Below are positions 13,449-50,150 of a stretch of 64,000 bases of DNA, piece after piece. Location of the stretch: assembly GCF_009939295.1 (NCBI RefSeq), contig NZ_WVIC01000003.1, positions 1 to 64,000 on the forward strand, written 5' to 3'. The notes beneath the pieces are model-generated. The model was not told where the DNA came from. It made no database searches and saw only the letters and a list, made by a program, of their open reading frames with translations. Every line of letters begins with the position of its first letter. Position 1 is the first letter of the stretch. The position numbers and the translations under genes are program-made. This DNA is from Petrachloros mirabilis ULC683 (GTDB lineage: Bacteria > Cyanobacteriota > Cyanobacteriia > Thermosynechococcales > Thermosynechococcaceae).

Positions 13449-13556
13449 TATAGTGGTTCTCACCTGAGTGAGATACGGGGTGTGGGGGTGGAACCCCCAC
13501 GCAGGGGGCACTGCCCCCTGCACCCCATGTACTCCATTGATCTGTAAACCGCTATA
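13449..13556. mobile_element. Family B repeat (TATAGCGG ends), copy 1
   Basis: 108 bp. Imperfect terminal inverted repeats TATAGTGGTTCTC / TATAGCGGTTTAC, plus internal hairpins GGGGGTGGAACCCCC and GGGGGCACTGCCCCC. The same sequence recurs at 32881, 40456 and 50005, with diverged relatives at 42169 and 44494. No coding capacity. Ends of TA suggest insertion at TA targets, as in IS630/Tc1-type MITEs. Confidence 0.75.
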
Positions 13557-30049: not shown

Positions 30050-31444
30050 ATGACCAGACATGGCCAGCTTTACTTAAGGGATATGGTTCCGCCCCGTTCC
30101 CAATATTATGCCCAGGGACGATTCGGCCGGATGTTCTCAACCTTACCGCCCTTTCTATCTGACACGCCGCAAGTTCGTCAGGCACTCATCGAGCTGGGAA
30201 AACCAGGTGGCATCATGGATCCCCAGGACTCTCCTGCGAATCCCAGCAACCCCAACAACCCCGATAACCCCAAGATTCCCTCTGGATTTACCTTTTTAGG
30301 TCAGTTTATTGACCACGACCTCACCTTTGACCCTACCTCTAGCCTAGAGCGCCAGAACGATCCAGAGTCCATCGAAAACTTTCGCACGCCGATGTTTGAG
30401 CTGGACAGCCTCTATGGCTCGGGTCTGGCAGCCAGTCCTCACCTCTACGATAAAAACCAAAGGGGCAAATTTCTGATTGATGCCAATGCAGATACAGATG
30501 TTCCTCGCAATAGTCAAAATATTGCCCTGATTGGCGACCCCAGAAACGATGAGAACTTAATTGTTTCTCAACTCCATTTTGCCTTTCTCAAATTTCACAA
30601 CGCCATTATGGATCGCCTCAGTGCCGTGGGGATGAGCGATCCGGGAATGCGCTTTGTTGAAGCCCAGCGCCAGGTGCGATGGCATTATCAGTGGATCGTA
30701 CTCCACGAATTTCTGCCTCGTACCGTCGGTCAAGGGGTCGTCCACGACATTTTGCAAAAGGGTCGTCAGTTTTATCACTGGCAGCATGAACCGTTTATCC
30801 CCGTTGAGTTTTCGGTAGCCGCCTATCGCTTTGGTCACAGCCAAGTGCGACCGGGCTATCGGGTCAATAGCGCTTTCGCAGCCTCTATCTTTGGGGCTCC
30901 TGGCACCAATGATCTCTCTGGCGATCGCCGCATTCCCCTAGAAAAGAAGGCAGACTGGAAGCTGTTTTTTGAGTTCCCCAATGAACCTGCTCCAGCCCTC
31001 AGCAAAAAAATTGATGTCAAGCTCTCCACGCCGCTGTTTCAACTGCCATTTTTGCCCCCCAACATGCCCACCAATCCCAATTCACTGGCTCAACGCAACC
31101 TGCTGCGTCACCTGACGTTCAGTTTGCCCTCGGGTCAGGCTGTTGCCCAGGCAATGGAGGTGGAACCCCTGACGGCTGAAGAATTAGCGGAGGCCGGCAA
31201 CATCGACCCGATGCTGGCCACCCATACCCCCCTGTGGTTTTACATTCTGCAAGAAGCGGACAAACGGGCAGAGGGTCACATCCTTGGCCCGGTTGGGGGT
31301 CGGATCGTGGCTGAAGTCTTTATCGGTCTGTTGCAGGGCGATCGCATGTCTTTCTTAAATCAATGCCCCAAATGGCAGCCCACCCTGGGGGCTACGCCGG
31401 GCAGTTTTTCCATGGCTGACCTTTTCAAAATTGCTGGTGTGTAA
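30050..31444 (+). CDS. Animal-type haem peroxidase (peroxidase-cyclooxygenase superfamily)
   Basis: 464 residues; ATG 30050 is preceded by AGAGGAATTC. Active-site residues fit mammalian peroxidases: FIDHD with the haem-linking Asp (D88) and distal His (H89), GDPRNDEN with catalytic Arg (R165) and Glu (E168), and proximal His in FGHSQVRPGY (H263). An Asn/Pro-rich linker is at about 63-76. No signal peptide is visible. Expected to oxidise halides or organic substrates with H2O2. It heads a set with a subtilase 92 bp downstream and an I9-like inhibitor. Confidence 0.93.
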   Translation: MTRHGQLYLRDMVPPRSQYYAQGRFGRMFSTLPPFLSDTPQVRQALIELGKPGGIMDPQDSPANPSNPNNPDNPKIPSGFTFLGQFIDHDLTFDPTSSLERQNDPESIENFRTPMFELDSLYGSGLAASPHLYDKNQRGKFLIDANADTDVPRNSQNIALIGDPRNDENLIVSQLHFAFLKFHNAIMDRLSAVGMSDPGMRFVEAQRQVRWHYQWIVLHEFLPRTVGQGVVHDILQKGRQFYHWQHEPFIPVEFSVAAYRFGHSQVRPGYRVNSAFAASIFGAPGTNDLSGDRRIPLEKKADWKLFFEFPNEPAPALSKKIDVKLSTPLFQLPFLPPNMPTNPNSLAQRNLLRHLTFSLPSGQAVAQAMEVEPLTAEELAEAGNIDPMLATHTPLWFYILQEADKRAEGHILGPVGGRIVAEVFIGLLQGDRMSFLNQCPKWQPTLGATPGSFSMADLFKIAGV

Positions 31445-31536
31445 ACAGGAGGATTAATCACCGTCTATCCCGCAACGAAAACTGATTTTGAAACCCCAAA
31501 ATATGGATTGCAACCCTGAACAAGGAGAAACCTCAC

Positions 31537-32841
31537 ATGTCAATAGAAACGACAGGCCGTTATTTGGTTCTCTTATCAGACAACACGGCTGAATCAGAAA
31601 ATACCTTGAGCGATGTCACCGGTATTCAACACATTGCCCATGCGGCTGATTTTGCAAACCACGCTTTCAGCGCTGACCAACTGGATCAGGGAAATGCGGC
31701 GATCTTTGATCGCCTTGGCGTTGCAGTTGTCTCCCTAGATCCTGATCAGCTTCAGTCCCTCCGAGTGGCCACCGCCACCCGTCGCTCACTCTTAAATGTC
31801 TATCCAGAGCGCATTGTACGAGCCATTGATCAGCCCGCCACCGTGGGGCTGCCGGGAGATTATCTGAAAGGCTATCGGGATGCCGTTTCCCATCTGTACG
31901 AGCAAACAGTGCCTCAGGAACTGGTGGCTACATTGGCAAGGCAACATCAGCCAGTGAACTTTACAGATAACGGTTCAACCTGGGGACTTCAAGCCACCAG
32001 CGTCATCCACTCACCCTATAGTGGGCTAGGGATTAGGGTGGCAGTTTTAGACACCGGCATGGATCTGACCCATCCCGATTTTGCGGGTCGAACCCTCCAC
32101 TCAGAATCTTTTATTCCGGGGGAAACAGCTCAGGATAAAAATGGTCACGGCACCCATTGCATTGGGACATCCTGTGGCCCCAAAGATCCAGAAGACTTGC
32201 CCCGCTATGGCATTGCCTACAATGCCGAGATTTTTGCAGGCAAAGTTCTGAGTGATGAAGGCTCTGGATCTGATGGTGGGATTCTGGCTGGAATTGAGTG
32301 GGCGATCACCCATGGCTGCGCCGTCATTTCCATGTCGTTAGGGGCACCAACTCGCCCAGGCGACACCTACTCCCCCATTTATGAGCAGGTGGGGCAGCGT
32401 GCCCTTCAAAACGGTGCCCTGATCATTGCCGCAGCCGGGAACGAAAGCCAGCAAGATCCATGGACGCCACTCAGAAAAATCCCTCCCAGTCCAGTGGCCT
32501 ATCCGGCCAATGCCCCCTCTTTAATGGCAGTGGCCGCCATTGATCACCAGTTCCGCATTGCTACTTTTTCCAATGGCTCGATTAACCCTCAGGGGGGACA
32601 GGTGGATATTGCTGGCCCGGGTGTGGAGGTCTACTCTGCCTGGCCCATGCCCAGTCGGTATCGCACCATCAGTGGCACCAGCATGGCAACCCCTCATGTG
32701 GCAGGGATTGCAGCACTCTACGCAGAAGCCACTGAAGCCCGAGGCATGGTGCTCTGGGGACTCCTGATGCGGGAAGCGCAGCGATTGGCCTTGTCAACCA
32801 CGGATGTGGGCATCGGCTTAGTAGGAGCACCCATCAGTTAA
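31537..32841 (+). CDS. Subtilisin-like serine protease (S8)
   Basis: 434 residues with AAGGAG before ATG 31537. An N-terminal ~100-residue region (RYLVLLSD, GVAVVSLDPDQLQSL, NVYPERIVRAI) looks like an I9-type propeptide. The protease domain begins near 150: catalytic Asp in AVLDTGMD (D172), His in NGHGTH (H204), oxyanion Asn in AAAGNES (N302), Ser in GTSMATPHVAG (S382). No signal peptide is visible, so it may act inside the cell or leave by a non-Sec route. Lies between the haem peroxidase and a separate inhibitor-like gene, all on one strand. Confidence 0.95.
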   Translation: MSIETTGRYLVLLSDNTAESENTLSDVTGIQHIAHAADFANHAFSADQLDQGNAAIFDRLGVAVVSLDPDQLQSLRVATATRRSLLNVYPERIVRAIDQPATVGLPGDYLKGYRDAVSHLYEQTVPQELVATLARQHQPVNFTDNGSTWGLQATSVIHSPYSGLGIRVAVLDTGMDLTHPDFAGRTLHSESFIPGETAQDKNGHGTHCIGTSCGPKDPEDLPRYGIAYNAEIFAGKVLSDEGSGSDGGILAGIEWAITHGCAVISMSLGAPTRPGDTYSPIYEQVGQRALQNGALIIAAAGNESQQDPWTPLRKIPPSPVAYPANAPSLMAVAAIDHQFRIATFSNGSINPQGGQVDIAGPGVEVYSAWPMPSRYRTISGTSMATPHVAGIAALYAEATEARGMVLWGLLMREAQRLALSTTDVGIGLVGAPIS

Positions 32842-32865
32842 GTCTGTCTGGCCTCCCGATACCTG

Positions 32866-32985
32866 AAACGTCAGCGGTTTTATAGCGGTTTACAGATCAA
32901 TGGAGTACATGGGGTGCAGGGGGCAGTGCCCCCTGCCCCGTATCTCACTCAGGTGAGAACCGCTATAACGAGACCGCTGACGTTT
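32866..32985 (+). terminator. Long hairpin after the subtilase gene, interrupted by a family B repeat
   Basis: AACGTCAGCGGT (32867-32878) pairs with ACCGCTGACGTT (32973-32984), followed by TTTGAAA. Without the family B repeat inserted in its loop this would be a compact stem-loop of the intrinsic-terminator type. The repeat's own ends extend the pairing. It may end or attenuate transcription between the protease and the inhibitor gene. Confidence 0.6.
32881..32967. mobile_element. Family B repeat, copy 2 (short form)
   Basis: 87 bp from TATAGCGGTTTAC to GGTGAGAACCGCTATA. It lacks the GGGGGTGGAACCCCC hairpin present in copies at 13449 and 40456, and has only the GGGGGCAGTGCCCCC stem. Inverted relative to the copies at 13449, 40456 and 50005. 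Inserted in the loop of a pre-existing hairpin. Confidence 0.75.
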
Positions 32986-33031
32986 TGAAAGTGGATAATG
33001 CCAGAGGCCACACATCCCAACAGGAGAGAAC

Positions 33032-33271
33032 ATGGAGCGGATTAAAGTGACTGTAACGGTTCGTGATGCCCATTTAGGGCAAATTGAGACCGTCGCCCAA
33101 AAATTGGCAGATCTGGGTTTGGCGATTGAGCAGACCTTACCCACGATTGGGGTGATTACAGGCACAGTGCGCTCCGAGCAAGTCCAGGCACTCCGTCAGG
33201 TCAGCGAAGTAGAGTTGGTTGCCGCCGAGCAAAGCTATCGGTTGCCCCCCCCAAGTTCAAACATTCAGTAA
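33032..33271 (+). CDS. I9-like protease inhibitor/propeptide-like small protein
   Basis: 79 residues with AGGAGAG before ATG 33032. The predicted beta-alpha-beta-beta-alpha-beta order (RIKVTVTVRDAHLGQIETVA, GVITGTVRSEQVQAL, EVELVAAEQSYRLPPP) matches stand-alone inhibitor I9 proteins, which resemble the propeptides of subtilases. The C-terminal tail after EQSYRL is where I9 proteins enter the protease active site. Similar proteins are sometimes misnamed ketohydroxyglutarate aldolase. Probably inhibits or helps fold the subtilase encoded 190 bp upstream. Confidence 0.75.
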   Translation: MERIKVTVTVRDAHLGQIETVAQKLADLGLAIEQTLPTIGVITGTVRSEQVQALRQVSEVELVAAEQSYRLPPPSSNIQ

Positions 33272-40455: not shown

Positions 40456-40563
40456 TATAGCGGTTCTCGCCTAAGTGAGGTACGGCGTGTGGGGGTTCCA
40501 CCCCCACGCAGGGGGCACTGCCCCCTGCACCCCATGTACTCCATTGATCTGTAAACCGCTATA
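40456..40563. mobile_element. Family B repeat, copy 3
   Basis: 108 bp, TATAGCGGTTCTCGCC to GTAAACCGCTATA, almost identical to copy 1 at 13449. Its right-hand TA (40562-40563) coincides exactly with the start of the right copy of the 449-bp duplication. Confidence 0.85.
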
Positions 40564-41010
40564 AACTTTCTAGGAGTGTGGTTTTGCCACTGGAGTAAGG
40601 CCCCACGATAGCAATATTCCGAAACTGGCTCATAGTCACGTCTCCAATACAATCGATGTTATGCCAACATCAAGGCGCTCGGAACTTCAACCACTCCCTG
40701 GGCGTCACAAAAGCCTTGACTCTGTGTGGGCTACTCTCTGTTTAGCCCATCTCTCGATTGAATCGAGCAAAATTGCCACTTCTCTTAAGGCAAACGTTAA
40801 CAAGCGTCAAGGAAGTTAACTTTTTCTGAACAGGAGTTTTTCGTGCGTAATGTTGATTGGCTTCGTCCCCGTTTATTTTTACTGAGCCTGGCTCTGTTGA
40901 TTCCGCTGGCAACGCTGGGGCTGCCTCACCCATCTGTAGCGGAAGACAACTGGCAGTTGTATGAATTGTTCCAAGAGGGGAAGCAACGGGTAGATGCCAA
41001 AGACTTCTCA
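40562..41010. repeat. 449-bp direct duplication, right copy
   Basis: Right copy of 39161-39609. Contains the first 78 bp of the EF-G gene (no gene attached here), the divergent promoter region and the start of the intact TPR gene. Begins at the end of family B copy 3. Confidence 0.93.
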
Positions 41011-50004: not shown

Positions 50005-50093
50005 TATAGCGGTTCTCACCTGAGTGAGATATGGGGTGCAGGGGGCACTGCCCCCTGCACCCCATATACTCCATTGATCTATAAACCGCCATA
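50005..50093. mobile_element. Family B repeat, copy 4
   Basis: 89 bp from TATAGCGGTTCTCACC to ATAAACCGCCATA. Same short core (GGGGGCACTGCCCCC) as copy 2, lacking the second hairpin. Between the antiporter start and the DUF3124 lipoprotein gene, so it may affect both promoters. Confidence 0.78.
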
Positions 50094-50150
50094 AATAAAA
50101 TTCATAATATTTTGATTATTTTCTCTAAAATCCTATTTCCGTAAATCTCC

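Follow-up and report, generated by a model that had tools for sequence, protein, structure and literature searches.

A probable protease–inhibitor gene pair, an S8 subtilase and a stand-alone propeptide-like protein, beside a haem peroxidase gene in Petrachloros mirabilis

The window analysed here is a 64,000-nucleotide stretch of contig NZ_WVIC01000003.1 from Petrachloros mirabilis ULC683, whose cyanobacterial genome was assembled to 4.12 Mb in 79 contigs. Between positions 30,050 and 33,271 the window carries three genes, which encode an animal-type haem peroxidase, a subtilase of peptidase family S8 (hereafter S8) and a small stand-alone protein that resembles a subtilisin propeptide (hereafter I9L). 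An earlier note on this DNA had reported three genes on one strand and proposed that they act together; open reading frames lie exactly where it had placed them, each with a purine-rich, Shine–Dalgarno-like stretch on its 5' side. The features of the locus are as follows.

30050..31444, plus strand: haem peroxidase, animal-type, 464 residues (PF03098, E 3e-21)
31537..32841, plus strand: S8 subtilase, most likely intracellular, 434 residues (PF00082, E 3e-45; D172, H204, S382)
31537..31827, plus strand: N-terminal I9-like prodomain of S8, approximately residues 1-97 (zymogen structure alignment, Z 18 to 19)
32866..32985, no strand assigned: hairpin between the S8 and I9L genes, with a repeat in its loop (fold z-score -7.7)
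33032..33271, plus strand: I9L, stand-alone propeptide-like protein, 79 residues (AlphaFold 2 (AF2) model with a mean predicted local distance difference test score, pLDDT, of 85.7; TM-score 0.67; family alignment)

The subtilase has the Asp-His-Ser triad of family S8 in DTG, HGTH and GTSMA motifs, together with the oxyanion asparagine. The triad residues named in the earlier note (D172, H204 and S382) and N302 are invariant in 25/25 aligned relatives, and so is Cys208, which lies beside the catalytic histidine. This arrangement is that of the proteinase K-like, thiol-sensitive subtilases; as a speculation, Cys208 could confer redox-sensitive activity on S8. No hydrophobic N-terminal signal peptide is present in S8 or in its relatives (25 S8 proteins checked), and the peroxidase reading frame can be extended by only 22 residues upstream. 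Because these 25 proteins have no signal peptide, S8 is most likely cytoplasmic and would need restraint.

Approximately residues 1-97 of S8 constitute a second domain of the propeptide-like kind at the locus, in addition to I9L. The apparent propeptide of the earlier note is indeed an I9-like domain: the whole S8 model, whose catalytic part is of poor quality, matches pro-subtilisin zymogen structures, the alignment starting at residue 7. The prodomain is predicted from sequence to end at VRAI(97), a likely point of self-cleavage, and most family members show V-x-A-[IL] at the alignment column equivalent to propeptide P1. Every member of the family retains the prodomain. A known defence system was considered, and the PADLOC matches to S8 were to a generic subtilase and to IetS, with none to I9L. 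A phage origin of S8 was likewise set aside; only generic phage subtilases matched, covering less than 80% of the query.

By sequence, I9L has no match in Pfam, NCBIfam or the PDB chains. PF05922 (Inhibitor_I9) does not match the protein of the window at E-values up to 1, nor its relatives at E-values up to 0.05 or 0.01. The best PDB structure matches of the model are subtilisin propeptides (3cnq, Z 9.5, with 71 residues aligned at a root-mean-square deviation of 3.7; 1scj, 9.3; 1spb, 9.1; Tk-subtilisin propeptides, 8.6 to 8.9). The description of the small protein as I9-like stands for its fold but not for a sequence match to PF05922. A profile comparison between I9L and the S8 prodomain gave an E-value of 0.003.

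The C-terminal tail of I9L reaches the P1 column of the propeptides, and residue 72 aligns structurally to Tyr77 of the BPN' propeptide. In subtilisins the C-terminal residues of the propeptide fill the S4–S1 cleft, with Tyr77 as P1 in BPN'. Six short-tailed I9Ls (L050, L101, L102, L103, L104 and L123) stop exactly at the P1-equivalent column with xA[ILM]. The tail of the cyanobacterial lineage follows the motif [YFI]-x-[LI]-(x)PPxSx[IVL]Q-COOH, and in the window's lineage I9L runs on past the P1-equivalent column, its last residues being PPxSx[IVL]Q. A bond adjoining proline is a poor protease substrate. Because the scissile bond would be formed or directly followed by prolines, the window-lineage protein would fit a stable inhibitor.

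The S8 and I9L genes form a conserved unit. I9L is present at 29/29 places where the S8 subfamily was found: directly downstream of S8 at 27, fused to it in one truncated gene of a metagenome-assembled genome, and unlinked in one. These places span Cyanobacteria, Alpha- and Gammaproteobacteria, Actinomycetota, Bacteroidota, Deinococcota and Planctomycetota, and none of the 29 examined has the S8 subfamily without I9L. The fusion, in a planctomycete of the Brocadiaceae (L074:3161-4483), joins I9L in frame to the C-terminal side of an S8 that lacks the catalytic serine region; it may be a broken gene or an assembly collapse and is not used as proof of fusion. Of 386 cyanobacterial genomes, 11 have the S8 subfamily and 12 have I9L, with an overlap of 11 (hypergeometric p about 2e-20). 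The genes are adjacent and in the same order in ten of the 11 genomes with S8; in genome G011 both are present, 2.5 Mb apart, and G336 holds an I9L fragment only. The pair was also found in G396, a member of the window's own family in which its neighbours are housekeeping genes, and in further cyanobacteria.

Plasmid-borne pairs come from four more phyla and were found in Methylobacterium, Rhizobium (2), Palleronia, Streptomyces (2), Hymenobacter, Deinococcus (4) and Vibrio. On every such plasmid a RefSeq "hypothetical protein" of 74-105 residues lies directly 3' of S8, the plasmid of R. sullae being unannotated and its I9L reading frame identified in this analysis. The coding regions of S8 and I9L overlap at two loci (gap -4). 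The cyanobacterial I9L profile scores the plasmid proteins at 14-89 bits, except that of Vibrio (5.8); scores against the family model are 14-137 bits (Vibrio 5.8), whereas none of 1,451 small open reading frames used as controls exceeds 7.2. Profile A1 varied too much to serve in a pattern scan, and the narrower A4 yielded 9 loci. Distances among S8 proteins correlate with those among their I9Ls (Mantel r 0.81, p 1e-4), which fits a partnership and is also compatible with shared inheritance as a unit.

I9L occurs without S8 in two genomes (L068 and L069), whose assemblies may be incomplete, and as one fragment. At the first of these loci, in Nostoc foliaceum (L068:5979-8240), a DyP-like protein is encoded on the 5' side of I9L and an LCAT-like hydrolase on the 3' side. 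A first look revealed many other S8 candidates in each cyanobacterial genome, up to 21. Since these genomes hold so many other S8 proteins, I9L is tied to one S8 subfamily rather than to subtilases generally.

It is quite probable that S8 and I9L form a two-gene protease–inhibitor module and that the peroxidase is separate, lying upstream of the pair here by happenstance. To judge from sequence and from the predicted structure, the most likely role of I9L is to inhibit the intracellular S8 in trans as its dedicated partner. Synthesised in the cytoplasm, S8 would carry an I9-type prodomain of its own that would fold it and would probably be cut after about residue 97. I9L, having the same fold, would dock on mature S8 in the manner of a propeptide, with its C-terminal tail in the S1–S4 substrate cleft, and, acting in trans, would keep the protease latent for as long as I9L is neither lost nor outcompeted. 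A short-tailed I9L would end at P1 like a cleaved propeptide, and in the window's lineage the prolines at P1, P1' and P2' should resist cleavage. The pairing, co-occurrence, fold, intracellular make-up and tail alignment are observed here; that I9L inhibits S8, that S8 is held latent and what would trigger it are inferred. The earlier suggestion that a stand-alone I9-like protein partners or inhibits the neighbouring subtilase is very likely right and is far more general than had been supposed, but control of the peroxidase within a three-gene set is not supported by the survey described below.

Several observations weigh against this model. The propeptide-like fold of I9L is ferredoxin-like and common to unrelated proteins; the Tat chaperone NapD scores on a par with the propeptides (Z 9.3). 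The identity of I9L is not settled by its fold alone, because the E-values from Foldseek are modest, 2.8e-3 at best. The probability that hhalign assigns to the match between I9L and the S8 prodomain is only 10%. The 1e-100 cut-off and the plasmid collection may skew which S8 relatives appeared. In the window itself, a hairpin and a repeat separate S8 from I9L, and expression of the two genes may be partly uncoupled. The outer stem of the hairpin (AAACGTCAGCGGT/ACCGCTGACGTTTT) is terminator-like, and inserted in its loop is a repeat (32877-32967) resembling a miniature inverted-repeat transposable element, with ends TATAGCGGTT...AACCGCTATA and at least 40 copies in the genome (46 other matches). 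Further copies on the contig lie at 13449-13556, 40508-40565 and 50005-50095. Finally, I9L could be a folding helper or an adaptor instead of an inhibitor.

Subtilisin propeptides act as both chaperones and inhibitors, and I9L accompanies every S8 examined, as would be expected if I9L were an in-trans folding chaperone of S8 and not its inhibitor. Each S8, however, keeps a prodomain of its own, so that a second chaperone is not needed. An orphan I9L exists where there is no S8 to fold, and the proline-rich extension of the long-tailed lineage suggests that the tail was selected to stay bound. A chaperone role therefore seems improbable, and inhibition in trans is the preferred explanation.

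The neighbours of the pair differ from locus to locus. In two Nostocales genomes it lies within an apparent gene cluster for ribosomally synthesised and post-translationally modified peptides (RiPPs). One of these (L062:2135-13091, genome G030) contains genes for a P450, a methyltransferase, YcaO, a ThcOx-like oxidase and two radical SAM proteins, and the other (L064:5728-16221, G376) closely resembles it in gene set and starts; no precursor peptide was identified in either cluster. This setting raises the possibility that I9L is an adaptor which brings a peptide substrate to S8 or tethers it there, the pair acting as a protease that matures RiPPs or similar peptides. NapD, which has a peptide-binding ferredoxin-like fold, is among the top fold matches of I9L, and the RiPP proteases EpiP and PatA are among the S8 relatives in the fold and family scans. 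Most S8–I9L loci, however, have no RiPP genes, and the tail column of I9L coincides with the propeptide P1 site, as inhibition predicts; an adaptor role is accordingly given a low probability.

Elsewhere the surroundings of the putative inhibitor and its protease are of other kinds. Genes for Trypco2, CHAT-SIR2 and a STAND-like NTPase with WD40 repeats follow directly 3' of the pair in genome G042 (L048:10209-15507), TIR and TPR genes lie near the pair of Methylobacterium, and a trypsin-like protease adjoins that of Streptomyces. Such varied neighbours fit a portable protease switch with locus-specific substrates, and the substrate of S8 probably differs by locus. A more far-reaching proposal is that S8–I9L is a pan-bacterial conflict module of the toxin/antitoxin type, in which loss of I9L would free a cytoplasmic protease to harm the cell or an invader, and which in some lineages would have been recruited beside haem peroxidases or into RiPP clusters. 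It is prompted by the fact that S8 is never found without its candidate inhibitor, that orphan inhibitors persist, and that the pair is spread patchily on plasmids and beside effector genes. This proposal is doubtful. As a separate observation, a 345-residue LCAT-like alpha/beta hydrolase is encoded near I9L at four Nostocales loci (L045:2947-3984, L046:11154-12191, L048:17027-18064 and L068:8327-9364).

The third gene of the locus encodes a member of the peroxidase-cyclooxygenase superfamily. The distal H89 and R165, the haem-linking D88 and E168 and the proximal H263 occupy the positions given in the earlier note and are conserved in homologues, as are the peroxidase-type motifs YRFGHS, GQFIDHD and DPRNDEN. 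By alignment, N169 corresponds to the sulfonium methionine of myeloperoxidase. A direct scan of the genome contigs with the peroxidase found no relatives.

Only 92 bp separate the peroxidase from S8 on the same strand, and a terminator scan found no terminator-like site within this gap; to judge from the sequence, the two genes may share a transcript in the window. This arrangement favours the idea that the three genes are one set, in which the pair would process or unleash the peroxidase as a latent oxidant weapon or a stress enzyme. The neighbourhood survey, however, does not find the triple conserved. It covered 26 other peroxidase loci, made up of nine from the cyanobacterial sample, three from the window's family (two of them contig-end fragments) and 14 from plasmids, including that of R. 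sullae. The pair lies near 1/26 of these and a peroxidase near 1/27 other S8–I9L loci, and both counts refer to the same R. sullae plasmid locus (L093), where the peroxidase is divergent and 834 bp from the pair. The remaining 25 peroxidase loci have no pair and the remaining 26 pair loci no peroxidase, and the set was rejected as a conserved unit. The closest homologue of the peroxidase (69% identity) comes from a genome that gave no match to the S8 subfamily or to I9L, rhizobial peroxidases 95% identical to that of R. sullae are found in other contexts without the pair, and across the 386 genomes peroxidase and pair show no enrichment (overlap one, p 0.21).

A single recurrence among 27 loci exceeds the roughly 0.002-0.015 expected from a rough density estimate and so appears unlikely by chance, although that estimate overstates its significance because accessory genes cluster. 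Unrelated peptidases also occur near the peroxidases of Palleronia THAF1 and R. sophoriradicis. These two loci and the R. sullae recurrence keep a weak link open, and a sporadic association is possible. The peroxidase is nonetheless mostly a chance or occasional neighbour of the S8–I9L pair, and a three-gene set that controls it is quite unlikely.

The two peptidase-bearing loci are described here in their own right. The plasmid of Palleronia sp. THAF1 (L108:3034-9569) carries on one strand, one after another, genes for a PAP2 phosphatase, a divergent S8, an animal-type haem peroxidase and an annotated C1-family peptidase; this S8 belongs to a different subfamily, and no I9L was detected with it. 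On the R. sophoriradicis plasmid (L111:5890-12580) an animal-type peroxidase, an unknown protein, a DyP-type peroxidase and a C25 cysteine peptidase adjoin one another.

No description of a bacterial pair like S8–I9L was found in openly licensed PMC full text. A bacterial propeptide-like inhibitor family with a dedicated S8 partner is thus apparently new, but stand-alone propeptide-like inhibitors as such are known; those so far described come mainly from eukaryotes. If the module proposed here is correct, it would provide a simple and directly testable protease switch in at least six bacterial phyla. It would also give a name to a family of small proteins that goes unrecognised in Pfam and NCBIfam and is annotated everywhere only as "hypothetical protein". 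The pair accounts for two of the three genes at the locus, and the peroxidase link is at most occasional.

The bacterial peroxidase-cyclooxygenase superfamily includes peroxicins and peroxidockerins, and short cyanobacterial members of unknown role have been described (PMC4420034). The PF03098 match and the active-site residues place the window peroxidase in this superfamily; a link to proteases goes unmentioned in the excerpted text of PMC4420034. Nucleoside triphosphate (NTP)-dependent conflict systems can contain trypsin, caspase or S8 peptidases, with S8 domains in one system (PMC7159879). The Trypco2, CHAT-SIR2 and STAND-WD40 genes beside the G042 pair recall these systems. Most S8–I9L loci differ from them in having no NTPase components, and the passages of PMC7159879 consulted do not mention an I9L partner.

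Stand-alone subtilisin-propeptide-like inhibitors have been characterised in eukaryotes, and one of them, SUB1-ProM of Plasmodium, is encoded beside subtilase genes and inhibits SUB1 (PMC6993865). I9L shares with SUB1-ProM the location of its gene next to that of its subtilase partner. The stand-alone inhibitors of MEROPS family I9 (POIA1, the yeast proteinase B inhibitor, Arabidopsis SPI-1, TgMIC5 and SUB1-ProM) are all eukaryotic, whereas I9L comes from bacteria, matches neither PF05922 nor any PDB chain by sequence and is a proposed inhibitor. In Bacillus subtilis the intracellular subtilisin protease (ISP) Isp1 has a separate protein inhibitor (PMC6220982 and PMC3901451), and IPI of Bacillus adopts an immunoglobulin-like fold (PMC3901451). 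Bacterial ISPs with IPI share with S8–I9L the regulation of a cytoplasmic S8 protease without secretion, and the immunoglobulin-like fold of IPI differs from the I9-like fold of I9L. ISPs typically have only a short N-terminal extension. S8 differs from them in having a complete prodomain of the I9-like kind, and a partner of that kind as well.

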